Positions 18,939 through 62,017 of a stretch of DNA of 64,000 bases are shown here, piece after piece. The position numbers were made by a program, and so were the translations under genes. The stretch's first letter is position 1. The number at the start of each line of letters is the position of its first letter. The notes under the pieces are model-generated. The model saw only the letters and a list, made by a program, of their open reading frames with translations, was not told where the DNA came from and did no database searches. Source of the DNA: Methylocystis sp. H62 (GTDB lineage: Bacteria; Pseudomonadota; Alphaproteobacteria; Rhizobiales; Beijerinckiaceae); contig NZ_JADNQZ010000056.1 in assembly GCF_015709515.1 (NCBI RefSeq), positions 62,001 through 126,000 of the forward strand, given 5' to 3'.

Positions 18939-19035
18939 GTCATTCCCGCAGGCCGAAGGCCTGACGTGGAATCCAGAGCCGATCTAACAATGTTGGTTTT
19001 GCTCTGGATTCCCGATCGCGCGCGTCGGGAATGAC
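18939..19035. repeat. Dispersed inverted repeat, copy A
   Basis: About 97 bp with termini GTCATTCCCG and CGGGAATGAC and an internal pair GGAATCCAGAGC / GCTCTGGATTCCC. A second copy lies at 41450-41552 and a third begins at the right window edge (63989). Flanking bases upstream (TGATCC, TTCGC, GACC) also resemble copy B on its opposite side, so the true element may be about 25 bp longer on each side. It is too short to encode a transposase and looks like a non-autonomous, MITE-like repeat. Confidence 0.75.
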
Positions 19036-19090
19036 ATCCGAAGCCGTGCAAAGAGAAGCGCGTCACGCGCGAATTGCCGACATTCGCTCG

Positions 19091-21370
19091 CTATCTTCGC
19101 GACGATTCGGTCAGCATTCCGCGCAGCGGCTGAAAGTCGAAGCGCACCTCATGGCGCCCTTCCGGAATCGCGACGGCGCGGAACATGACATTCGCGCGCA
19201 GAATCGGCGCTTCCACGCCGTCGAGGTTCGCGAACCACCACGGATGCCAGACGTCGTGCAAAACAAGCCAGCCTCCGCCCGGAGGCGCGCTGGCCTCGGC
19301 GACGATGCGATCGTTCTCGTAGGAGAGGATTTTCGCCGTCGCCGGCGGCGCATTTTTGCGCGTATGGCAAATCGGCGGCGTCTCCAGGAGCACCGTCTCG
19401 CGATAGTCCGCCTCCGGCCACTCGCCGCTCTTCGTCATCGCCGCGAAATCGACGTGGATGGCGCAGGTTGCGAGTATGACGCGCGGCATGGCGCGGGGAT
19501 TTTCGTAAATGTGAACGTCGCCAATGCGTGTGAGTTCGACGAAGTCGCCCGACTTGTAATTCTCATCGATCTCTTCAATGGGCACGCCGGTCGCGATAAA
19601 TCGCAGGCCGAGCATGTCCGACAGGATTGAGCGATAGGCAGGATAGAGCTTGGAAAACTGGCGCTGCTCGGGAAGCGCGAGATGGTCTCCGGCGCCGGTT
19701 ACGTCTTCGAAGAGCCGCAACCGGATGGGATTGTAACCGAGAACATGATCGAAGCCGTGGACGAGCGACGCGTTCGGCCAATGAAAATCGATCGCCGCAA
19801 GTTCGACGCGGTCGCGACGATCCGGCCCCGCCGTCTCCTTTAGCTTCCCGCGCAGATAGGCGATCACCGGATCCTTGCCGTTGACCCGCAAGGCGTCGAA
19901 CTGCTCAGGCGGCAAGGCCGTCGATTCATTGGGACCGTTGCCGATCGTCAGATCGACGCTCATCAACGTGGCGACCGCCGCGAGCAGATACGGGCCGCGC
20001 AACAACCTGTCGCGAGTGGCGAGGATAAGCGCGACGGCGAGCGCGGCGAGAATCGCGCTTGTCGCGAGCGGCCAGAAGGCTTGGTTGAGATGGCCCTTCA
20101 CGCCCGCGACAAGCAGCGCGACCGCGAACAGCGCGGCGACGGCGCCGACAAGCCAAGCCGTGCGCGGCGTGGCCTCGCCCCGCTCGACGAGATTGAAGCC
20201 ATAGCCCGCGAGGATCGCGAGCGTCGCGCCGAGCAAGAATGTAGCGTCGGCCGGCCGCCGCCAAAGGTCGACGCCCGGCAGATGATAGAAGAAGGCGAAG
20301 GCTGGCGTATAGCGGCCCAGGGCGTAGAGGGCGAAAAACAGCGCGGCGGCGGCGAAGAAGCGGATTTCCTTATTTGAGAAAAAGCGCCTGCCCAGCGCCG
20401 CGATCAACGATACGAGCGTCAGTTCGCCCAAATAAACATTGGTCATGTTGCGCGCGAGGAACAGGTCGCGCTCGCCCGCCGGTGGCCCCCAGAAGTTTTT
20501 GAGCGGACCATCCGTTCCGAACATATTGGCCGAGATCAGCGTCCAGAAGGAGCCCGGCGGCAACGAGCCCTTGAAGGCGCCGTCGAGATCGATCTCGGGT
20601 CGGTTTGAATGCGCGGCGAGATCCAGCGTGAACGCAAGCGGCACGGCGATGATTGTCAAACCGACGAGCGCGCCCGCCGCGAGCGGCGTAACCGCGCCGA
20701 GTTTGGGCGATTCATCCGTAGCGACGCGATAGGCGGCATAAGCGGAAAGCATCAGCACGCCTAGGAACGCGACCTGGTCCCGTCCCAGCACCAGCAGTGC
20801 GGCGGCGGCGCCCGCAGCGGCGCCATAGAGGGCCGAGCGCCGATCGAGCCCCCGCGCCAGCAGCCACAGCGTGACCGGGAGCCACGCGAGACTCATGATC
20901 TGCCCGACATGCTGAATGCGCCACGCCGCCGAGCCGCCAAAGGCGAATGCGAGAGCAGCGAGCAATCCCCCCGCGGCGCTCCAGCCGCGATCGCGAAAAT
21001 AGGCGATGAGCGCAAGGCCGCCCATGGCCAGCATCGCGAAGACGATCGCGTCGGCGAGGACGAAGGACGGCTCGGGAACGAGCGCCGCCGCCATCAGGAA
21101 AAACGGAGAGAAGATCAGCGATTGCGGATCGGCGATCTGCGGCATCCCCGCAAAGACGTGCGGCGTCCAGAACGGCGACTGGCCGCTGTGTAACGCATGG
21201 GCGAGAAAGGCGAACTGCGGAAAAAAATGCGCTTTCGCGTCCCAGGGAATGGTGACGCGCCCGGAAAGCCAGGGAAAGGCGAGCGCCAGCGCGCAGACGA
21301 GGAAAAACGCCGCCGCGAGGGCGTAGGGCTGACCTTCCGGGCGGCCGGCGCTTCTACCGATTCGTTGCAT
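19091..21370 (-). CDS. YfhO-like multi-pass membrane protein
   Basis: A 759-residue inner-membrane protein with about 12 hydrophobic helices in the first 480 residues and a soluble C-terminal domain. The N-terminal part (DAKAHFFPQFAFLAHALHSG, then SPFWTPHVFAGMPQIADPQS) is typical of YfhO-type and related GT-C-fold proteins, which are thought to glycosylate lipid-linked or surface polymers. ATG 21370 is chosen because the hydrophobic start follows; the frame remains open upstream. It lies 31 bp downstream of the TetR gene on the same strand, so the two may be co-transcribed. Substrate unknown. Confidence 0.75.
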   Translation of the reverse strand: MQRIGRSAGRPEGQPYALAAAFFLVCALALAFPWLSGRVTIPWDAKAHFFPQFAFLAHALHSGQSPFWTPHVFAGMPQIADPQSLIFSPFFLMAAALVPEPSFVLADAIVFAMLAMGGLALIAYFRDRGWSAAGGLLAALAFAFGGSAAWRIQHVGQIMSLAWLPVTLWLLARGLDRRSALYGAAAGAAAALLVLGRDQVAFLGVLMLSAYAAYRVATDESPKLGAVTPLAAGALVGLTIIAVPLAFTLDLAAHSNRPEIDLDGAFKGSLPPGSFWTLISANMFGTDGPLKNFWGPPAGERDLFLARNMTNVYLGELTLVSLIAALGRRFFSNKEIRFFAAAALFFALYALGRYTPAFAFFYHLPGVDLWRRPADATFLLGATLAILAGYGFNLVERGEATPRTAWLVGAVAALFAVALLVAGVKGHLNQAFWPLATSAILAALAVALILATRDRLLRGPYLLAAVATLMSVDLTIGNGPNESTALPPEQFDALRVNGKDPVIAYLRGKLKETAGPDRRDRVELAAIDFHWPNASLVHGFDHVLGYNPIRLRLFEDVTGAGDHLALPEQRQFSKLYPAYRSILSDMLGLRFIATGVPIEEIDENYKSGDFVELTRIGDVHIYENPRAMPRVILATCAIHVDFAAMTKSGEWPEADYRETVLLETPPICHTRKNAPPATAKILSYENDRIVAEASAPPGGGWLVLHDVWHPWWFANLDGVEAPILRANVMFRAVAIPEGRHEVRFDFQPLRGMLTESSRR

Positions 21371-21401
21371 GGCCACAGTTCTAGCGGCTCCAGACCCTGG
21401 C

Positions 21402-21953
21402 TCAAAGCCGCGCTTCAGGCGACCGCCTGAGGCCGAAGCGCGCAGCGAGCGCGTCGATATCCACAGCCGCACGGCGCTTGTCATCCGATTCCAGCAGGAG
21501 GCGCAACCCCATGCCGCGCAGCATGTCAATAAAGGCGCTGATATCAGGATCGTCGGCGGTCCGGCCGAAGACCGGCGCGAGCTGCTCGGCCACGCCTCGG
21601 GCGTGCGCAGCGAGCGTCGCCCGAATGTCCGATTGGTCGCTCGCCTGAGCCACGACGCTCACGAAGAAGCGCATCCTGTTGCGCTCGAACATGAGCGCGC
21701 GCACCGCTTCGACGGGATCGACGTCGCTTCCGATCGAACCGCGCTTGGGCTTATGCGCCTGCGCATGCGACGCTTCGAGCGTCGCGGCGAGCAAATCCGT
21801 CTTACGCGGAAAATAATAGGTCAAATGCGACTGCCGCAGTCCGGCCGCAGCGGCGACGCGGGTTTGGGTCAGCGCGGAGACGCCTTCCTTCCTGAGGATT
21901 TTGAGCGCAGCGTCCAGAATGCGCTGACGCGCGCTTTTTTCCACCATCGCCAT
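21402..21953 (-). CDS. TetR-family repressor, likely controls the divergent uptake cluster
   Basis: A 183-residue regulator. The N-terminal helix-turn-helix is typical: RQRILDAALKILRKEG, LTQTRVAAAAGLRQSHLTYY, FPRKTDLLAAT. The C-terminal two thirds is the helical ligand-binding domain. It is divergent from the uptake cluster, and a 15-bp palindrome lies 87 bp from its start in the shared promoter region; an identical site precedes the next gene of the cluster. That arrangement is what a TetR repressor controlling itself and its neighbours looks like. Inducer unknown; copper or a related molecule is inferred from the context only. ATG 21947 is an alternative start. Confidence 0.9.
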   Translation of the reverse strand: MAMVEKSARQRILDAALKILRKEGVSALTQTRVAAAAGLRQSHLTYYFPRKTDLLAATLEASHAQAHKPKRGSIGSDVDPVEAVRALMFERNRMRFFVSVVAQASDQSDIRATLAAHARGVAEQLAPVFGRTADDPDISAFIDMLRGMGLRLLLESDDKRRAAVDIDALAARFGLRRSPEARL

Positions 21954-22039
21954 TCGCGTTCATTCAACCTTTGCCGCGCCAGCGTCGTATCAAAAAAAAC
22001 GCGCCGCGGAAACGCCTCTGACGCTTGCGCCACATTCTA

Positions 22040-22054
22040 TTGGTAATATACCAA
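22040..22054. promoter_or_regulatory. 15-bp palindromic operator, site 1
   Basis: TTGGTAATATACCAA is a near-perfect inverted repeat (arms TTGGTA/TACCAA) in the 134-bp region between tetR and the uptake-associated gene, ending 34 bp before the latter's ATG. The AT-rich core probably overlaps a -10 region. The exact reverse complement occurs again at 22617-22631. Assigned to the adjacent TetR-type regulator by inference. Confidence 0.75.
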
Positions 22055-22087
22055 CCTAGCGCGCCACGCTAACGTTGGAGAAGATCG

Positions 22088-22537
22088 ATGAGATTATTTC
22101 TTATTGGGATGATCAGTGCAGCGGCGTGCCTGAGCGCGCGGGCCGACGAAGGATCCGAGGCGGCGCGCCGCCTGCTGTTCGAAACGTTCGACAAGCCGGA
22201 AACGCGCCTGTTCGTCGACGCAATCGTCGTCGAAGGCGACGTCGCCATCGCCGACTGGCGCCAGGGCGAACTCGGCGGCCGGGCGTTTCTGACGCGTAAG
22301 GGCGATGCGTGGAGCATCTCGCTTTGCGCCGGCGACGCCTTGAAAGACAGCGCCACGCTGGAAAAGCTCGGCGTTTCCAAAGCAAATGCGGAAACGCTTT
22401 CAAGACGGCTGGCGGCCGAAGAAACGCGGCTATCCCCCGACGTCATCGAGCGTTTCTCCCGATTTGACGGCATGGCCGCCATCGAGGCGGATGGGAGCCA
22501 TTCGCCGCTCGATCCCCATCACAAGCCCATTCCCTGA
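22088..22537 (+). CDS. Secreted copper-uptake-system-associated protein
   Basis: A 149-residue exported protein: signal peptide MRLFLIGMISAAACLSARAD, then a domain that matches my recollection of the family named copper uptake system-associated protein. Typical parts are LLFETFDKPETRLFVDAIVV, VAIADWRQGELGGRAF, the WSISLCAGDALKDSATLEKL segment with a conserved cysteine, and RFSRFDG. Members are usually found beside DUF2946 proteins and TonB-dependent receptors, exactly as here. ATG 22088 has GGAGAAG upstream. The histidine-rich end (DPHHKPIP) is suggestive but not proof of metal binding. Site 1 of the presumed operator lies just before it. Confidence 0.65.
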   Translation: MRLFLIGMISAAACLSARADEGSEAARRLLFETFDKPETRLFVDAIVVEGDVAIADWRQGELGGRAFLTRKGDAWSISLCAGDALKDSATLEKLGVSKANAETLSRRLAAEETRLSPDVIERFSRFDGMAAIEADGSHSPLDPHHKPIP

Positions 22538-22616
22538 CTGTCGCTCACTGTTGCGCCGGAGCAACAGCAACCGAAAATGCGCCCGTCGGACCCGGCAAAG
22601 CGTTGCCCCACGTAAT

Positions 22617-22631
22617 TTGGTATATTACCAA
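22617..22631. promoter_or_regulatory. 15-bp palindromic operator, site 2
   Basis: TTGGTATATTACCAA is the exact reverse complement of the site at 22040-22054 and lies in the 168-bp gap before the DUF2946-like gene and the receptor. It implies a second promoter under the same regulator. It is 75 bp upstream of the ATG at 22706. Confidence 0.75.
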
Positions 22632-22705
22632 CAATCAGGTTCGGCGCTCTGAACGCCCTTCCTTCACGCCTTCGGCGAGACGCAGCCACGAGGATCCGAG
22701 ACAAG

Positions 22706-23092
22706 ATGACGGCCCTTGCGAGAATGCCTCGCTCGATGATTTTGCGGCGCATCGGGGCCCTTTGCATCGCGCTGCTCTTCGCGCTCGCGGCCATTTCATC
22801 TTCGGCGCCGGCGCATGCCGCGCATGCGCCGCAGGGGACGGCCGTGCACTGTCCGGACACTTCCCAACCTGCGCCGACGAAGCATCCATGTGGCGGCGAG
22901 CAATGCTGCTCGCTCTGCGGTCACAGCCAGAAAGACCTGGTTTCTCCTTTTATTGAGTCTGCATCGGGCGCCATCGCCTATGCGCCTCCGCGCGCCGCAA
23001 GCCGCGCATTCTGCGCCATTCAGGCGCCGGCCAGAAAAACCGTCCGCGCACATTCGCGCGCCGCCCCGCGCGCGCCGCCCCGCTTCTCCTGA
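22706..23092 (+). CDS. DUF2946-like Cys-rich secreted protein
   Basis: A 128-residue protein with an N-terminal hydrophobic signal segment (RRIGALCIALLFALAAI) and a short Cys/His cluster (VHCPDTSQ, HPCGGEQCCSLCGH) at about 48-73. The C-terminal part is basic and low in complexity. The layout resembles DUF2946 proteins, which occur beside copper-linked TonB receptors, and the receptor gene follows 56 bp later. A role in metal handling at the envelope is inference. ATG 22736 (MILRRIG) is an alternative start. Confidence 0.65.
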   Translation: MTALARMPRSMILRRIGALCIALLFALAAISSSAPAHAAHAPQGTAVHCPDTSQPAPTKHPCGGEQCCSLCGHSQKDLVSPFIESASGAIAYAPPRAASRAFCAIQAPARKTVRAHSRAAPRAPPRFS

Positions 23093-23148
23093 TCGCGACA
23101 GCCTTCCCCTAACGATCGCGCGGCGAGAGGCCGCTCAGGAGAGATTCC

Positions 23149-25503
23149 ATGTTTCGGACCGGCTTGCTGCGCGGCGCGTCCGCCGTCGCCCTCATTCTTT
23201 CGCTCGCGGATTCGAGCGCTCTTGCGCAACAGAGTCTGCCGACCATCGACATTGGCGGCGCCAAGCCGCGCGTCGTCGGACGCGGCGGCGGCCGCGCCCC
23301 GGCCACGGCGACGGCGCCAGTCCCCGCCACCTGGACGCAAACCGGCGGAGGCGGCTCGCTCACAGTGCCGTCAGTCGCCCAGCAGCGCCGCGAACTCGAG
23401 CGCAGCGTCGGCTCGGTCGCCTTCGTCGACGCCAATACGCCTGAAATTCAAACCCGCTACGTTCATGACCTGCGCGACGCGCTCAAGGACGTCCCGGGCG
23501 TCTATGTCGAAAGCCGCTACGGACAGGAACTGCGTCTTTCGATCCGCGGCTCAAATCTGACGCGCGACTTCCATCTGCGCGGACTGGAGCTGCTGCAGGA
23601 CGGCATTCCGATGAACTACGCCGACGGCGGCGGCGACATGTATCAGATCGATCCCAAATATTTTCGCGCGATCGAAGTCATGAAAGGCGGCAACGCCCTC
23701 GCCTATGGCTCCTCGACGCTCGGCGGCGCGATCAATTTCATCTCGCCCACCGCCTATACGGCGCTCGCGCCGAACATGGCGTCGCTCGAGGGCGGCAGTT
23801 ATGGGACGGTGCGCGGGCAAGCGCAGATGTCGCGCATCATCGGCAATTTCGATTTTCTCATCAACGGCACGTTCACCCATGCCGACAATTACAGAAAACA
23901 TTCGACGACGGACTACACGCAGCTCAACGGCAATCTCGGCTATCGCTTCTCCAACGATCTCGAAACGCGGTTCTACTTCGGCGTCTATGACACGTGGCAA
24001 TTGCTGCCGGGGCAACTCAACGAATTCGATGCGCGCAACAATCCGCGATTGTCACTGCCGCCGTTTCCGCCGGGGTTCGGACCGGACGGCTTTGGCGCCA
24101 ATCAGGCGCGCAACGTCAAGAACTGGCGCATTTCGAACAAGACCACGATCCTGAGCGAAATCGGCCGCATCGACCTCAATAGCTGGTACACGCACAACTA
24201 TCTCTATCATCCGATTTTCGTGGTCATCGAACAGGAAGGCGGGACCTGGGGATTCACCCCGCGCCTCACCTCGAATTTCCTGGTCGACGGCCACCCCAAT
24301 GAACTCATCCTTGGCGGCCGCGTCTGGGGCGGATCGTCGAGCGACAATTGGGCCGACAACTACAATGGCATGCGGCTCAATCCCTACGGCGGGATCCCCG
24401 CCAATTTCGGCAACGCGCAGTTCTCCTTTCCACCCTATTCGTTCAATGGACTCGCGCAATTTGGCGCGGCGAATTCCTGCTTCGGTTTCTGCGGCCTGTT
24501 CATCAATCCCGGATTGGATCCGCGTCTGCGCAACAATCGCGCGACGGCGCTCAATCTCGAAGCCTATTTCGAGGATCGCCTGCACATCACGCCGCAGCTC
24601 ATCTTCATGTTCGGCGCCAAGCTTTTCGCCGACACGCGGCGCTATGCGGTTCTCGGCGGCATTCCCTTCGAGCCAGTTCCCGGCGTATCGGACCAAGTCT
24701 TCCGCGGCATCGTGCCCAAGGTCGGTCTGATGTACGAACCGACGCCGGACATTCAGTTCTTCGCCGACATGACCGGAAGCCGCGACGTGCCGGACTTCAT
24801 CGACCTGACGCAAGGCGTGTTTCCGCCGCCGCGCGACGGCACCAAATTCACGCCGCTCGCGGCGCAGAAAGCCTGGACCGGGGAGCTCGGCGCGCGCGGC
24901 AGATGGGACCGCTACACCTGGGATGTGACCTTCTACCATTCGGAACTGCAGGACGAACTCTTAAAATTCACCACCAATCCCGGCCTCGGCATTCCGGCGA
25001 CGACCTTCAATGCGAAACGCACCATGCACCAGGGCGTCGAATTCGCTGCGAGCGCCGAACTCCTGCGCGATATTTTCGCGCCGGATGCGGGCGACGCGCT
25101 AAAGCTGTCGCAGGTCTGGACCTGGAACGATTTCCGCTTCGTCGGCGATCGCGACTTCGGCGACAATACGCTGGCCGGCATTCCGCGCCACGTCTTGCGC
25201 ACCACGCTGTCCTATTGGCGGCCCGACGGCCTCTATCTCGCGCCGCAGATGGATTGGGTTCCCGGAGGCGCTTTCGTCGACTACGCCAATACGCTGCAGG
25301 CGCCCGGCTATGTCTTGCTGGGCGTCCAGGCGGGCATGAAGCTGCCCTACGGGCTCTCGTTCTTTGTCGAGGCGCGCAATCTGACCAATCGCCACTACAT
25401 CAGCGACGTGACCACGATCGTCGACGCCCGCGGTCTCGATCCGAGGGTCTTCTATCCGGGCACGGGACGGGTGATCTACGGAGGCTTGCGCCTCGCGTTC
25501 TAG
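23149..25503 (+). CDS. TonB-dependent outer-membrane receptor, module 1
   Basis: A 784-residue outer-membrane transporter. After the signal peptide the mature end begins AQQSLPTIDIGG, a likely TonB box. The plug domain (about 85-220) has LRDALKDVPGVYVESRYGQE, LRLSIRGSNLTRDF, LELLQDGIPMNYADGGGDMY and the IEVMKGGNALAYGSSTLGGA motif. A 22-strand barrel follows and closes with the canonical terminal aromatic (RVIYGGLRLAF). It is energised through TonB-ExbB-ExbD, for which the genes lie at 59.6-61.5 kb. Neighbours suggest copper or a copper chelate as ligand; siderophore-type use is possible. The next genes encode an ABC pair, so imported ligand may be handled by a linked system. Confidence 0.93.
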   Translation: MFRTGLLRGASAVALILSLADSSALAQQSLPTIDIGGAKPRVVGRGGGRAPATATAPVPATWTQTGGGGSLTVPSVAQQRRELERSVGSVAFVDANTPEIQTRYVHDLRDALKDVPGVYVESRYGQELRLSIRGSNLTRDFHLRGLELLQDGIPMNYADGGGDMYQIDPKYFRAIEVMKGGNALAYGSSTLGGAINFISPTAYTALAPNMASLEGGSYGTVRGQAQMSRIIGNFDFLINGTFTHADNYRKHSTTDYTQLNGNLGYRFSNDLETRFYFGVYDTWQLLPGQLNEFDARNNPRLSLPPFPPGFGPDGFGANQARNVKNWRISNKTTILSEIGRIDLNSWYTHNYLYHPIFVVIEQEGGTWGFTPRLTSNFLVDGHPNELILGGRVWGGSSSDNWADNYNGMRLNPYGGIPANFGNAQFSFPPYSFNGLAQFGAANSCFGFCGLFINPGLDPRLRNNRATALNLEAYFEDRLHITPQLIFMFGAKLFADTRRYAVLGGIPFEPVPGVSDQVFRGIVPKVGLMYEPTPDIQFFADMTGSRDVPDFIDLTQGVFPPPRDGTKFTPLAAQKAWTGELGARGRWDRYTWDVTFYHSELQDELLKFTTNPGLGIPATTFNAKRTMHQGVEFAASAELLRDIFAPDAGDALKLSQVWTWNDFRFVGDRDFGDNTLAGIPRHVLRTTLSYWRPDGLYLAPQMDWVPGGAFVDYANTLQAPGYVLLGVQAGMKLPYGLSFFVEARNLTNRHYISDVTTIVDARGLDPRVFYPGTGRVIYGGLRLAF

Positions 25504-25591
25504 CTCGGCGACGTTTGGGCGATCGGCGCGGCGGGCCATATATAGGGCTGGCGCGCCGGCCGCCTTCGCCGGTCCGATCAGGGCGCATGGT

Positions 25592-26305
25592 TTGTCGATT
25601 CACGCGACGCCGGAAAATCTCGCCGCTGGGCGGACAAGCGCGCCGATGCTGCGCGTCGATGGGCTTAAAAAATCCTATCCGACGCCGCAGGGCCGCATTC
25701 CCGTGCTGCGCGGCGTGGACTTCACGCTCGCCGCCGGCGCCAGTCTCGCGCTGACCGGCGAATCGGGCAGCGGCAAGAGCACGCTGCTGCATCTGGTCGG
25801 CGCGCTCGACGACGCCGATTCCGGCGAGATCGTTCTCGATGGCGTCGTGCTGACGCGGCTATCGGAAACAGCGCGGGCCGCCATGCGGCGTGAAAGCATT
25901 GGCGTCGTCTTTCAGCAGTTCAATTTGATTCCGAGCCTGACCGTCGGCGAAAATCTGGGCTTCCAGGCGCGACTCGCCGGGCGCTACGATCCGTCGTGGC
26001 AGGAAGAGCTCACCGCGCGTCTTGGCCTTGCGACGCTGGCCGCCCGCTATCCTGAGGAGCTGTCCGGCGGACAGCAGCAGCGCGTCGCCATCGGCCGCGC
26101 CCTCGCCGTACGCCCGAGGCTTCTCCTCGCGGACGAACCGACCGGCAATCTCGACGAAGCGACCGGAGACGCCGTCATGGCGCTGGCGCTCGACCTCGTC
26201 GCCGCGACTGGCTGCGCCTTTCTGATGGCGACGCACAGCGAACGGCTTGCCGGCCGGCTGCAACGCCGCGTGCGGCTGGAGGCCGGTCTTCTGGCGGCGC
26301 AATGA
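25592..26305 (+). CDS. ABC transporter ATPase, LolD/MacB type
   Basis: Nucleotide-binding subunit, 237 residues from TTG 25592 or about 219 from ATG 25646; the start is uncertain and the conserved part begins at LRVDGLKKSYPTPQGRIPVL. It has Walker A GESGSGKSTLLHLVGALD, the Q-loop FQQFNLIPSLTV, signature LSGGQQQRVAIGRALA and Walker B LLLADEPTGNLDE. The LolD-class features fit the FtsX-like permease that overlaps by 4 bases. Together with the AttH-like protein this resembles the AttEFGH-type group known from Agrobacterium and Nitrosomonas. It probably moves or extracts a lipid or lipophilic product rather than importing sugar. Confidence 0.92.
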   Translation: MSIHATPENLAAGRTSAPMLRVDGLKKSYPTPQGRIPVLRGVDFTLAAGASLALTGESGSGKSTLLHLVGALDDADSGEIVLDGVVLTRLSETARAAMRRESIGVVFQQFNLIPSLTVGENLGFQARLAGRYDPSWQEELTARLGLATLAARYPEELSGGQQQRVAIGRALAVRPRLLLADEPTGNLDEATGDAVMALALDLVAATGCAFLMATHSERLAGRLQRRVRLEAGLLAAQ

Positions 26306-28770
26306 GAGAGACGCTCTGGACGCTCGCCGCGCTGATCAGCCACTGGCGCCGACGGCCCGGGAACCTCGCGACGCTCGTGCTGGGTCTCGCCATCGCCACG
26401 GCGCTGTGGAGCGGCGTGCAGGCGCTGAACGCTCAGGCGCGCAACAGTTATGACGCCGCGGCGAACGCGATTTCGGGCGGCGGCGCCAGAACGCTCGTCG
26501 CCGCGCGCGGCGGCCTGTTTGACCAGGAGCTCTTCGTAAGGCTGCGCCGCGCCGGCGTCACCGTCTCGCCCGTCTTGGAAGGCGCCGTCCGGATCGGCGA
26601 GAAGAATATTCGGATCATCGGCGTCGAACCGCTGTCGCTGCCGCGCCGCTCGCCGATCGCCGACCGGCGGACGCGATCGGATGTGATCGAAGATTTCTTT
26701 TCCGGCCCAGGCCGTAGCTTTGTCGCGCCGCAGACGTTGCGCCGGCTCGATCTCGCCGAGGGCGCGCAGCCGCAAACCGAGCGCGGTCAGCAGCTCCCGC
26801 CGCTTGCCGCGCTCGCCGAAGCGCCGCCCGGCGCAATCATCGTCGACATTGGCGTCGCGCAACGCCTGCTCGATCGACCCGGAAAGCTCTCGCGACTCGT
26901 TATCCTCGATGAGGAGACATTCGACGAGGCGCGGCTTAAGCCAATCGCCGGCGATGCGCTGCGGCTGGTCGCGCCGGATGATGAGAGTGATCTCGCCCGC
27001 CTGACCGACAGTTTTCACCTCAATCTCACCGCCTTCGGCTTTCTTGCGTTCCTGGTCGGTCTGTTCATCGTGCACGCCGCTTACGGCCTCGCCTTCGAAC
27101 AACGGCTGCCGACCCTGCGCACCTTGCGCGCGCTCGGCGTTGGGCCGCCCCATCTCGTCGCGGCGATGGCCTGCGAAATCGCCGTCCTGACGCTGATCGC
27201 GGGGGGCGCGGGCGTCCTCGGCGGTCACGCGATCGCGCAGGCGCTTCTGCCGGATGTCGTAAAAAGTCTCGAGAGCCTCTACGGCGCGCAAATCTCCGAT
27301 CGCCTTGCGCTCGATGCGCGCTGGTGGCTCTCCGGCCTTGCGATGGCGGGCGCCGGCGCGGCGCTTGCGGCGGCGAGCGGCCTGACGAAAGCATTGCGGC
27401 TGCCGGCGCTGTCGTTCGCGCGTCCCATGGCCTGGCGCGGCGCGCATCACCGCTATTTGCGACGGCAGGCCGCGCTCGCGGCGCTTGCTCTTGTCGCGGC
27501 GGCCGGCGCATACCGCTTTGGCGAAGGACTTGCGTCAGGCTTCGCGATCATCGGCTTGGCGCTTCTTGCCGCGGCGCTCATTCTGCCCGTCGGACTTGCC
27601 GGCGCCTTGGCGCTCGCCGAGCGTTTTGCGCGCCGGCCGCTCACCCGCTGGTTCTTCGCCGACGGACGCCAGGAAATTTCCGGTCTTTCGCTTGCGCTGA
27701 TGGCGCTGCTGATTGCGCTTGCGACCAACATCGGGGTCGGCGGCATGGTCGAGGGCTTTCGCCAGACGTTCGATCGCTGGCTCGACGCGCGCCTCGTCGC
27801 CGAGGTCTATTTCGAAGCGGCGACGCCCGCCGATGCGCGCGACATCGAGGCGTGGGCGCGCACGCAGCCCGACATCGCCACGATCCTGCCGATCTGGCGC
27901 GCGAAGACGCGCATCGGCGGATGGCCCGTCGACGTGCTCGGCATGACGCCTCACGAAACCTATACGGCGCATTTTCCCTTGATCGACGCCACGTCGGACG
28001 TGTGGACGGCGCTGCACGCGCAGGACGCCGTTCTCGTCAGCGAGCAGTTGGCGCGCCGCCTCAGTCTCGCGATCGGCGAGACGCTCGACATTCCGACGTC
28101 GGGACGAGACTTGCGCGCGCGCATCGTCGGCGTCTTTCCCGATTACGGCAATCCGAAAGGCCAGCTGCGCATCGATCACGAAAAGCTGACGCGCTATTTC
28201 GACGACGCTTCCGGCGTGCATTACAGCCTGCGCGTCGATCCCGGCGCCACGACGCGCGTCATCGAAAACATGCAGCAGCGCTTCGGCGGAAAAATCGCGC
28301 GCATCGTCGATCAGGCCGAAGTCAAAACGCTGTCGACGGACATCTTCGAGCGCACATTCGCCGTCACGACGGCGTTGAACACGCTCACGCTGATCGTGTC
28401 CGGCGTCGCGCTTTTCGCCAGCCTGCTGACGCTCAGCGACATGCGGCGCGCCCGCATCGCGCCAGTCTGGGCCCTGGGCGCGACGCGGCGAAAGCTGGCG
28501 GCGCTGGAAATGGCGCGGATCGTGGCGTTCGCCGCCGGCGCCGCGGCTTTCGCGATCCCGCTTGGACTGTTCATGACCTGGAGCCTTGTCGCGATCGTCA
28601 ATGTCGCCGCCTTCGGATGGCGGCTGCCATTCCATATGTTTCCGGCGCAGTGGCTTGTGGTTTCCAGCATCGCGCTCTGCGCCGCGTTCTTTGCGGCGCT
28701 CATCCCCGTCGTTCGGCTCGCACGCGTTTCGCCGACCGAACTGCTCAGGGTCTTCTCGAATGAACGCTAG
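26302..28770 (+). CDS. FtsX-like ABC permease (two FtsX modules)
   Basis: An 822-residue inner-membrane permease. One hydrophobic helix near the N-terminus and a large periplasmic part are followed by an FtsX-type four-helix unit (FLAFLVGLFIVHAAYGLAFE and onward). A second periplasmic part and a second FtsX unit (LTLIVSGVALFASLLTL to the end) follow. This is the duplicated architecture of YbbP/AttF-type permeases. It overlaps the ATPase gene by 4 bases (ATGA) and the following gene by 11 bases, so the three are tightly coupled. Transport direction is inferred from the LolCDE-type family: substrate taken from the membrane toward the periplasm. Confidence 0.88.
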   Translation: MRETLWTLAALISHWRRRPGNLATLVLGLAIATALWSGVQALNAQARNSYDAAANAISGGGARTLVAARGGLFDQELFVRLRRAGVTVSPVLEGAVRIGEKNIRIIGVEPLSLPRRSPIADRRTRSDVIEDFFSGPGRSFVAPQTLRRLDLAEGAQPQTERGQQLPPLAALAEAPPGAIIVDIGVAQRLLDRPGKLSRLVILDEETFDEARLKPIAGDALRLVAPDDESDLARLTDSFHLNLTAFGFLAFLVGLFIVHAAYGLAFEQRLPTLRTLRALGVGPPHLVAAMACEIAVLTLIAGGAGVLGGHAIAQALLPDVVKSLESLYGAQISDRLALDARWWLSGLAMAGAGAALAAASGLTKALRLPALSFARPMAWRGAHHRYLRRQAALAALALVAAAGAYRFGEGLASGFAIIGLALLAAALILPVGLAGALALAERFARRPLTRWFFADGRQEISGLSLALMALLIALATNIGVGGMVEGFRQTFDRWLDARLVAEVYFEAATPADARDIEAWARTQPDIATILPIWRAKTRIGGWPVDVLGMTPHETYTAHFPLIDATSDVWTALHAQDAVLVSEQLARRLSLAIGETLDIPTSGRDLRARIVGVFPDYGNPKGQLRIDHEKLTRYFDDASGVHYSLRVDPGATTRVIENMQQRFGGKIARIVDQAEVKTLSTDIFERTFAVTTALNTLTLIVSGVALFASLLTLSDMRRARIAPVWALGATRRKLAALEMARIVAFAAGAAAFAIPLGLFMTWSLVAIVNVAAFGWRLPFHMFPAQWLVVSSIALCAAFFAALIPVVRLARVSPTELLRVFSNER

Positions 28771-29863
28771 ATCCCCGAACAGTTCCCCGGAACGGCGCTC
28801 GGCGATTTCGAGGCGATCGGCGCTGCTTCTTGCGCTGTCGTCGAGCGGCGCGTTGGCGCAAGGCTTCGGCGGACTTGGCGCGACGGCGCCCGGCTTCGCA
28901 ATTCCCCGACCTGGAACGCCGCTCGCATTTCCAAGTGACCATGGCGCGCATCCCGATTTTCGTACCGAATGGTGGTACGTCACCGCAAATCTAAAAAGCG
29001 ATGACGGCGCCGCCTATGGCCTGCAGTGGACGCTTTTTCGCTTTGCACTGCAGCCGAACGCGGCGCGAGCCGGCTGGGACGACCGCAATGTGTGGATGGG
29101 CCATGCGGCGGCGACGAGCGCGAACGAACATCTCTTCGCGCAAAAATTCGCGCGTGGCGGCATTGGCCAGGCGGGCGTCGAGGCGGCGCCCTTTCGCGCT
29201 TTCATCGACCACTGGGTTTTGGAAACGCGCGACGATTCCGTGGACGCCGGAATCGAGCGGCTGCGCGTTTCCGCGGGCGACAGGAATTTCGCCTATGCGC
29301 TCGATCTCACAGCGAAGGGACCGATCGTTTTGCAAGGCGAGGGCGGCTACAGCCGCAAGTCCGAGGCTGGACAGGCCTCCTATTATTTCAGCCAACCATT
29401 CTTCGAGGCGAAAGGCTCGTTGTCGATGAACGGACGCAAAATCCAGGTTTCCGGCCGCGCCTGGATGGATCGCGAATGGTCGAGTCAGCCGCTCGGCGCT
29501 GATCAAAAAGGCTGGGACTGGTTTTCGCTGCATCTTGAGGGCGGCGCCAGACTGATGCTGTATCGCATGCGCAGCGTCGAGGCGCCGTCGTTTCTCTTTG
29601 GGAATTGGATCGACGCCGATGGCGCAACATCCATACTCGCGCGCGAAGACATCTTCCTCGAGCCTTTAGAGACGATACGCATCGCAGATCGGGACGTGCC
29701 GGTCCGCTGGCGCGTGAAGATTAAAAACCGCGACGTTGACATTGAGACGCGGCCGCTCAATCCAAGAAGCTGGATGGGAACCGATTTCGCCTATTGGGAA
29801 GGTCCGATCCGCTTTACGGGTTCGCACAGCGGCGAGGGCTATCTCGAAATGACGGGCTATTGA
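28760..29863 (+). CDS. AttH/CrtC-like secreted lipocalin-fold protein
   Basis: A 367-residue exported protein. The N-terminus (ISRRSALLLALSSSGALAQG) looks like a twin-arginine-type signal. The body matches the AttH-like predicted hydrolase/lipocalin family, with DHGAHPDFRTEWWYVTANLK, WTLFRFAL, GHAAATS and AWMDREWSSQPLGADQKGWD. ATG 28760 overlaps the permease stop by 11 bases. The AttH family is regularly encoded with the ABC pair seen here. The substrate is likely a lipid or isoprenoid, as in CrtC, but this is family inference. The 3' end overlaps the convergent MarR gene by 7 bases. Confidence 0.85.
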   Translation: MNARSPNSSPERRSAISRRSALLLALSSSGALAQGFGGLGATAPGFAIPRPGTPLAFPSDHGAHPDFRTEWWYVTANLKSDDGAAYGLQWTLFRFALQPNAARAGWDDRNVWMGHAAATSANEHLFAQKFARGGIGQAGVEAAPFRAFIDHWVLETRDDSVDAGIERLRVSAGDRNFAYALDLTAKGPIVLQGEGGYSRKSEAGQASYYFSQPFFEAKGSLSMNGRKIQVSGRAWMDREWSSQPLGADQKGWDWFSLHLEGGARLMLYRMRSVEAPSFLFGNWIDADGATSILAREDIFLEPLETIRIADRDVPVRWRVKIKNRDVDIETRPLNPRSWMGTDFAYWEGPIRFTGSHSGEGYLEMTGY

Positions 29864-30303
29864 GCCCCCGTGGCCGTGCGAAAAAAGTTCAAAAGAGCGC
29901 CTCGCGTATCCCGAAGCTTTTTCAAATGCACGGCGGCGAGTTCCGACAGCCGCCGGTCGCCCGCCCGCGTGATGACCACCAGCGATCGACGACGGTCGGT
30001 CGGATCGGTCTTACGCCTGACAAGCTTCGCCTGCGCCAGGCGCGACACCAGCTCCGCCGCGCTGTGATCGCGGATCATCAGCTGGTCGGCGAGTTCGCCG
30101 ACGCTGATGTGTTTCGCGCCGCGAAAGGTGCGCACCACAAGAAGCGCCTGATACCATTGCACGGTCACGCCATGGTCGGCGGCGACCTGTTCGCTGAAGG
30201 CCAAAAACCTTCGCAAGTCGGAGCGAAATTGCGCGAGCGCGACCAGGTCGTCTTCACTTGGCGACTTGCGCGGAGTCCCTTGTGTCTGTTCGCAGAGATT
30301 CAA
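29857..30303 (-). CDS. MarR-family transcriptional regulator
   Basis: A 148-residue winged-helix dimer. The DNA-binding core reads HISVGELADQLMIRDHSAAE and LVRRKTDPTDRRRSLVVIT, with the DxRxx-type wing. The start is read as TTG 30303, because AAGAGG lies 7 bases before it and no ATG occurs before the conserved part. It is convergent with the AttH-like gene. A regulatory target cannot be named; the divergent or upstream region shows no clear palindrome. Confidence 0.88.
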   Translation of the reverse strand: MNLCEQTQGTPRKSPSEDDLVALAQFRSDLRRFLAFSEQVAADHGVTVQWYQALLVVRTFRGAKHISVGELADQLMIRDHSAAELVSRLAQAKLVRRKTDPTDRRRSLVVITRAGDRRLSELAAVHLKKLRDTRGALLNFFRTATGAQ

Positions 30304-61522: not shown

Positions 61523-62017
61523 ATGAAGTTCGCGCGACTCCTTCCAATCGCCGCGGCGCTCGCCGCTTGCGCCGCGCACGCCGAGGACGCCAAGCCCGCG
61601 CCCACGGGGCCGGCGCCCATGACGGCCGCGCCCATGACGGCCGCGCCCGCGCCAGCACGACTCGCAGCGCCAACGCAAACCACAGCGCCGGCGCGCGCCG
61701 CTGCGCCGGCGACGACGGGCGGCGCAGCCGCGCCCGCCGCGGCTCCGGCGATGTCAGAGAGCAAATTCCTCGGCGTGCTCTACACGGCGATCGCCAAGCA
61801 AACGCCTTCGGAAAGTCCTGCCGGCGACGGCGAGGTGACGGCCAGCTTTCACGTCAATGCGCAAGGCAAGATCGACAAGGTGACGATCGACAAAACGACA
61901 AGCCCAGCGCTTTCAGAAACGGTGAAGAAGATCCTGTCGAGCGTCGAAGCGCCATCGCCGCCGGGCGGCTCCATGGATGTGGGACAAACTTTCAAATTTC
62001 GCGGGACGCCGAAATGA
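61523..62017 (+). CDS. Secreted TonB C-terminal-domain protein, copy 1
   Basis: A 164-residue exported protein. A signal peptide (KFARLLPIAAALAACAAHAE) is followed by an Ala/Pro-rich linker and a TonB C-terminal-type domain (FLGVLYTAIAKQ, VTASFHVNAQGKIDKVTIDK, SPPGGSMDVGQTFKFRG). It lacks the transmembrane anchor and coil of TonB, so cannot itself be coupled to ExbB-ExbD in the usual way. The fold could bind the receptor's TonB box or peptidoglycan. It follows tonB after 60 bp. Confidence 0.75.
   Translation: MKFARLLPIAAALAACAAHAEDAKPAPTGPAPMTAAPMTAAPAPARLAAPTQTTAPARAAAPATTGGAAAPAAAPAMSESKFLGVLYTAIAKQTPSESPAGDGEVTASFHVNAQGKIDKVTIDKTTSPALSETVKKILSSVEAPSPPGGSMDVGQTFKFRGTPK

Follow-up and report, generated by a model that had tools for sequence, protein, structure and literature searches.

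A probable local TetR-family switch with paired palindromic sites at a copper-type TonB uptake cluster of Methylocystis

Palindromic sites at the uptake cluster

Within a 64,000-nucleotide stretch of the genome of Methylocystis sp. H62 (hereafter the window; positions 62,001 to 126,000 of contig NZ_JADNQZ010000056.1), a putative copper-type uptake cluster comprises a TetR-family gene, a divergent gene for a protein of family NF033672, a short leader open reading frame (ORF) and a gene for a TonB-dependent receptor (Table 1). Two 15-bp palindromes, considered here as operators of the TetR protein, precede the two target units. The original prediction, that such a palindrome stands in both orientations ahead of two genes of this cluster and serves the TetR protein, was accurate with regard to the coordinates of the sites, their being exact reverse complements of each other and the gene layout. 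Its wording on orientation holds for the sites as stated and fails for their arms: TTGGTA and TACCAA form a perfect dyad in which only the 3-bp spacer reads ATA or TAT, so that a dimer would meet the same arms in either orientation. Operator 1 is located 86 bp from the TetR start codon, and the NF033672 gene starts 33 bp past it; operator 2 lies 79 bp past the stop of the NF033672 gene and 74 bp ahead of the leader ORF. In an alignment of 24 TetR-NF033672 intergenic stretches, the 12 arm bases of the dyad form a conserved island, and the spacer and flanks vary.

The 15-mer with the ATA spacer is present in exactly two copies in the 4,540,521-base genome, both strands being counted, and both are found at the cluster; about 0.0006 15-mers and 0.05 exact-arm dyads were expected from the base composition of the window. 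The exact site occurs nowhere else, and an objection to the original prediction based on many genomic copies thus fails. With up to three mismatches allowed, the window contains five matches, four of them being the two sites read on both strands, versus a shuffle mean of 0.08. At up to one arm mismatch the genome holds four sites (about 2.4 expected), namely the two operators and two extras, which fall within an ORF and past the end of a gene, respectively; a global regulon was rejected, as exact sites are confined to the cluster and the two extras lie where they do. At up to two mismatches a reversed control pattern yields 53 matches versus 24 for the real pattern, and the looser genomic matches to the dyad are noise. 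The reversed control was matched at zero mismatches in 2 of 39 genomes of the genus (one match each) and at up to one mismatch was as frequent as real matches in several of 12 genomes, so that only exact or clustered sites carry weight. A few extra exact-arm sites in other genomes (within an ORF in G272, as a pair on contig C92 of G317, and within an ORF in L035 of another genus) were set aside as background or sites of another regulator. The G317 pair (L121, 6639-6671) comprises two exact-arm sites 18 bp apart ahead of a recombinase-like gene in a phage-like stretch, and these tandem sites probably belong to another regulator.

An mbnB (methanobactin) gene above the cut-off is located on the same contig outside the window, about 89 kb from the cluster (G000:C56:173203), and no site with up to two arm mismatches was found within 80 kb of it. 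As the sites are local and none lies near mbnB, this system is not the global 'copper switch'. The spacing between mbnB and the cluster is alike (79-89 kb) in G190, G203, G241, G267 and G272. A strict tie to methanobactin makers was also considered and rejected, MbnB above the cut-off being absent from 4 of 19 TetR-positive genomes.

A scan of positions 19000-30000 with Rfam gave no hit that reached the gathering score. The TetR strand has a hairpin resembling a terminator, with a run of T, between operator 1 and the start codon of the TetR gene (22001-22015, minus strand); the A-rich stretch at this hairpin is kept in the window's group, and the hairpin is possibly an attenuator of the TetR gene.

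Distribution of the site and the TetR gene

A profile search of 397 genomes of the family, in which at most eight candidates per genome were scored and relatives can therefore be missed, identified 28 TetR homologues in 26 genomes. Each of the 28 genes is preceded, at a distance of no more than 300 bp, by a site that matches all 12 arm bases (21 genes) or 11 of them (7 genes), none of 2,800 dinucleotide shuffles reaching 11 arm bases; a conserved palindrome upstream of the regulator's own gene, as in local TetR autoregulators, is thus present throughout. Among 385 genomes of the class searched with the TetR profile at E 1e-25, with at most nine candidates per genome scored, only the own genome was matched. 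The NF033672 family was matched in 32 of the 397 family genomes, and at the 30 loci fetched the TetR gene is adjacent in 23 and about 4 kb off in one (L012, genome G223), where it has its own site. A site with at least 11/12 arm bases accompanies all 24 NF033672 loci from TetR-positive genomes versus none of the six others (Fisher test, relatedness ignored); at these six loci, from genomes without a TetR match, the best approach to the site is 9/12, in one. Within the genus, exact-arm sites were found in 17 of 19 TetR-positive versus 0 of 20 TetR-negative genomes, several of the 20 being incomplete, and the two TetR-positive genomes without exact arms (G114 and G277) have the site at 11/12. 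Because of relatedness, the co-occurrence counts are less independent than they look.

The position of the site also changes with that of the TetR gene. In G114 and G277, and at the second loci found in G307 and G317, a TetR gene about 50% identical to that of the window is divergent from a leader-TonB unit, the site lies between them and NF033672 is absent; the second units of G317 (L086) and G307 (L087) have leaders ending in WSATSPPRIS. The NF033672 loci of G307 and G317 are without the leader-TonB unit and without operator 2, and a remaining 110-residue stretch in L090 (G317), which resembles the receptor C-terminus, suggests that the leader-TonB unit was lost there. Operator 2 has exact arms in all 14 fetched genus loci in which the leader gene of the window was matched; the second site has one mismatch in L081, L082, L083, L084 and L093, and reaches only 10/12 in L034 (G128). 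For four of the six g42 genomes searched (G042, G078, G146 and G200), no site with at most one mismatch exists in the genome beyond the two of the cluster, and G128 and G174 have one site each, the contig of G174 ending inside the cluster. Thirteen larger stretches (209,439 bases) contain 19 sites with at least 11/12 arm bases, each read as lying ahead of a cluster gene. TetR genes 85-98% identical were found in 12 of 17 matched loci, mostly of Methylocystis and one of M. rosea SV97, the other five being short actinobacterial matches that were dropped.

Because the site stays with the TetR gene while other neighbours change, the palindrome is very probably the operator of the TetR protein, and its regulon is probably local. 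The pairing of protein and palindrome put forward in the original prediction is supported by both co-occurrence and co-relocation; its possible weakness, loss of the site in relatives that keep the cluster, was not seen, since none of the fetched loci with cluster and TetR gene has lost the site.

The TetR protein, the leader and the receptor

Table 1. Features of the uptake cluster (positions in the window).
Feature	Position	Strand	Description
TetR-family regulator	21402-21953	-	183 aa, no Cys; PF00440; predicted binder of both sites
Operator 1 (putative)	22040-22054	.	TTGGTAATATACCAA, TTGGTA-ATA-TACCAA; between the divergent TetR and NF033672 genes
NF033672 gene	22088-22537	+	149 aa; NCBIfam 'copper uptake system-associated protein' (mbn_chaper_assoc); first target unit
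Operator 2 (putative)	22617-22631	.	TTGGTATATTACCAA, TTGGTA-TAT-TACCAA; ahead of the leader-TonB unit
CruR/CutF-like leader ORF	22706-23092	+	128 aa, hydrophobic N-terminus; second target unit
CSLC (CXXC) of the leader	22907-22918	+	motif, codons 68-71
RAPPRFS-stop	23069-23092	+	leader C-terminus; RAPP lies three residues before the end, like that of CruR
Anti-Shine-Dalgarno (anti-SD)	23084-23092	+	TTCTCCTGA; final leader codons with the stop; complementary to the receptor Shine-Dalgarno region
Shine-Dalgarno region of receptor gene	23135-23142	+	TCAGGAGA; predicted to pair with 23084-23092
TonB-dependent receptor	23149-25503	+	784 aa; PF00593 and PF07715

The TetR protein passed the test for the TetR_N domain (PF00440, 37.2 bits versus a cut-off of 24) and reached no NCBIfam cut-off. 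Its AlphaFold model is all-helical, with a mean predicted local distance difference test (pLDDT) score of 85, and its best Foldseek matches are TetR-type regulators (best E 6e-5; template modelling scores by query of 0.36-0.62, which are modest, among the rows listed), including the TetR proteins EbrR, RcdA and KstR that were solved with organic ligands. In an alignment of 63 rows, consisting of the window protein and 62 sequences picked by hand from the 120 listed of 939 matches, residues Q41, S42 and T45-P49 in the DNA-binding domain never vary, which would fit an operator that is itself conserved. His63, His117, Asp135, Asp143 and Arg146 are likewise invariant in all 63 rows and Met94 is kept in 61, and cysteine is absent from 42 rows, present once in 16 and twice in 5. 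From this conservation, a His/Met metal site in the TetR protein is possible.

The leader could not be assigned to Pfam DUF2946 (11.1 bits, under the cut-off of 23.7), a family whose cut-off was passed by only one of seven leaders tested (L084, 31.1 bits), and it is therefore filed only as CruR/CutF-like. Its hydrophobic N-terminus, CXXC motif and RAPP close to the end are features of CruR/CutF leaders. The CXXC motif and a C-terminal RAPP-type motif are present in all 26 leader rows and the gap between them is exactly 50 residues in each (14 distinct sequences, the rest repeats), with 48 residues in L081 and L084. The end of the leader, TCTCCTGA, is complementary to the Shine-Dalgarno region of the receptor gene (23069-23151). 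A Watson-Crick match of 7-10 nt between anti-SD and Shine-Dalgarno was found in each of the 18 rows selected for this comparison (14 from the window's group; L081, L082, L084 and L093 were added because their leaders end in RAPP-x-F-S), and the two are paired in the minimum-energy folds of 17. Leader and receptor are 55-56 nt apart in the window's group, and the four others have 74-75 nt between them. Control of the receptor by the leader as a second layer appears likely in kind, its details being tentative.

The NF033672 protein scored 123.6 bits versus a cut-off of 50 and is the sole match in the genome. Two Protein Data Bank (PDB) entries match the receptor with an E value of 1e-10 or lower, YncD and a pyrroloquinoline quinone (PQQ) transporter, over residues 77-300 only, and an assignment of the receptor to the copper receptor family TIGR01778 (OprC type) was rejected (19.7 bits versus a cut-off of 472). 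The copper label of the cluster hence derives from NF033672 and the CruR-like leader, not from the receptor itself. The receptor gene is followed, at 25592-29863, by genes for an ABC ATPase, a MacB/FtsX-like permease and a CrtC-like lipocalin protein, and in L090 and L091, where the full receptor gene is absent, the ABC ATPase, permease and lipocalin genes come after the NF033672 gene. What we take to be an alpha/beta-hydrolase-like gene is located between NF033672 and operator 2 in L081, L082 and L093 (g42, probably Methylosinus), and in L089 (G277) about 3.2 kb of DNA resembling an IS66-type insertion stand between the leader ORF and the TonB receptor gene.

Proposed regulation, alternatives and known systems

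In the model that we propose, the TetR protein would act as a local, self-regulating repressor of an outer-membrane uptake cluster of copper type. It would bind TTGGTA-N3-TACCAA, probably as a dimer; from operator 1 it would govern the TetR gene itself together with the divergent gene for NF033672, and from operator 2 the leader ORF and TonB receptor. A second layer would come into play after the second promoter has opened: translation of the leader, which has a CXXC metal motif and an arrest-like RAPP end, would decide whether the receptor Shine-Dalgarno stays paired with the last codons of the leader; by analogy with PMC9426467 and PMC9973294, a ribosome halted at RAPP would cover the anti-SD. 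We hold this whole model, with TetR-dyad repression of both units and the leader layer, to be probable. A local TetR-operator switch is very likely judging from sequence, repression and autoregulation by the TetR protein are likely, and the chances that copper status is the signal are about even. At the level of sequence the model draws on the near-uniqueness and conservation of the site, its co-occurrence and co-relocation with the TetR gene, the leader motifs and the complementarity, from which we infer binding, dimer formation, repression and autoregulation, ribosome stalling, the cargo and the signal (either copper status or a complex of copper with its carrier).

Several observations weigh against this model. 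The TetR protein is without cysteine and can thus have no thiolate copper site. A scan for sigma-70-like promoters around the sites, which bears on an overlap of site and promoter, found none, with 0.3 expected. With regard to the leader layer, the leader is not a true CruR and was not filed as such, as its gap of 50 or 48 residues lies outside the 45 (plus or minus 1-2) of CruR, in which five additional residues weakened copper control according to PMC9426467. The fold at the leader end of the window does not surpass shuffled sequences in stability (z -0.86; 39 of 200 shuffles equally good), L084 has no such fold and L093 has it in only one of two folded stretches. The leaders of L086-L089 end in SATSPP and have no anti-SD, and those of L083 and L085 have different ends as well.

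The alternative with the greatest weight, which we consider a serious possibility falling somewhat short of even, is that the TetR switch is real and its signal is not copper but an organic ligand, for example the receptor cargo (PQQ-like or a metallophore) that the cluster imports. This is compatible with the TetR-operator part of the model and not exclusive of it. It would fit the absence of cysteine from the TetR protein, the resemblance of the receptor to YncD, PQQ and siderophore receptors and not to the copper-receptor model, and the fold matches solved with organic ligands (EbrR, RcdA and KstR). However, the usual partners, NF033672 and the CruR/CutF-like leader, are tied to copper by name or by experiments on relatives, the invariant His63 and His117 and the nearly invariant Met94 would allow a metal site, and MbnB above the cut-off was found in 15 of 19 TetR-positive versus 6 of 20 TetR-negative genomes of the genus. 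A more specific proposal is speculative and rather unlikely: the cysteine-free TetR protein would sense Cu(I) or a copper-carrier complex via His63, His117 and Met94 as corepressor, in a two-step gate with a copper-sensing leader peptide whose stop-codon region masks the ribosome-binding site of the receptor.

The sign of regulation is not fixed by the sequence, and promoters were not located by the scan; the TetR protein might thus bind the sites and activate, or regulate in a mixed mode, and be needed when copper is scarce. We regard this as improbable, because operator 1 ends 33 bp before the NF033672 start codon, which is close for an activator site, and repression with autorepression is the commonest arrangement for a TetR-family operator at a divergent start. 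A further alternative, in our estimate a little more improbable still, is that some other regulator recognises the palindrome, or that it is a structural element of RNA or DNA, the TetR gene being a mere neighbour: a perfect dyad with a drifting loop suits a hairpin too, the link between protein and DNA is by association, and the two G317 sites ahead of the recombinase-like gene are on an 11.9-kb contig with no TetR homologue matched. Yet in G114 and G277, and at the second copies in G307 and G317, the TetR gene and site occur together without NF033672, the TetR gene of G223, 4 kb away, has a site of its own, and the TetR-negative genomes of the genus are devoid of exact-arm sites. Finally, sites with one arm mismatch do occur at chance rate, and two look-alike AT-rich palindromes could arise from composition, but the conservation of the arms over many genomes and the outcome of the shuffles make this explanation close to negligible, and a chance origin is already refuted by the shuffles together with the absence of exact-arm sites from the 20 TetR-negative genomes.

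Each layer of the proposed system has known relatives, namely autoregulated TetR repressors, ComR, CruR and CutF. With divergent autoregulated TetR local repressors, as generally known, it shares the TetR_N domain, the divergent target, a 15-bp palindrome and very few genomic sites, and it differs from them in its target, a copper-type TonB cluster, and in reaching no NCBIfam cut-off.

The following comparisons refer to the accessible portions of the cited papers. ComR (YcfQ) is a TetR-type copper repressor with an outer-membrane target that affects copper permeability; it is released by copper and is said not to regulate itself (PMC10141476). The likeness lies in type, copper context and outer-membrane target, and the present cluster differs in that an uptake receptor is preceded by a leader ORF and in that one of the sites is probably autoregulatory. 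CruR (Bp2923) is a copper-responsive upstream ORF of Bordetella pertussis (PMC9426467), and the leader described here differs from it in the CXXC-RAPP gap (50, or 48 in L081 and L084, versus 45; PMC9426467) and the distance to the receptor (55-56 or 74-75 nt versus 162 nt; PMC9973294). CutF of Rhodobacter capsulatus is a DUF2946-like exported leader with a proline-rich end, where a stem-loop shields the Shine-Dalgarno of the next gene, and it favours a multicopper oxidase with copper (PMC9973294). The window leader is similar as a putatively exported, DUF2946-like leader with a proline-rich end, and may have a comparable stem over the next Shine-Dalgarno; it is dissimilar in that its final codons themselves contain the anti-SD and in that it would act on an uptake receptor. 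The accessible portions of PMC9426467 and PMC9973294 describe no TetR layer for CruR and CutF; the term 'TetR' is absent from the main text of PMC9426467, and 'tetr' appears twice in PMC9973294. Methanobactin uptake in Methylosinus is controlled by MbnI/MbnR/MbnT, an extracytoplasmic function (ECF) sigma/anti-sigma system (PMC9601215, PMC3621798). There too, within the same group of bacteria, a TonB receptor that serves to acquire copper is the target of control, and in contrast to this cell-surface signalling with a sigma factor, the present system would use a one-component TetR protein and a palindromic site. The cluster is not named in the accessible part of an expression study of Methylosinus trichosporium OB3b (PMC12811070), and a copper-binding negative regulator in methanotrophs was suggested, none being named, in that of PMC3621798. 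Among the papers listed in searches of the open-access literature, most subscription papers being outside its coverage, no description of the repressor, the site or the combination was found.

The particulate enzyme needs copper to oxidise methane, and the turning-down of copper import in methanotrophs is poorly known; for its study the cluster offers one named gene together with an exact site and a pair of target units. If the proposed model is true, a repressor would be stacked on a copper-sensing leader peptide, so that one receptor would be gated twice. Should the reading with a His/Met site and a corepressor also be true, the TetR protein would represent a new type of sensor and may be the kind of local negative regulator that was predicted for methanotrophs but not identified.

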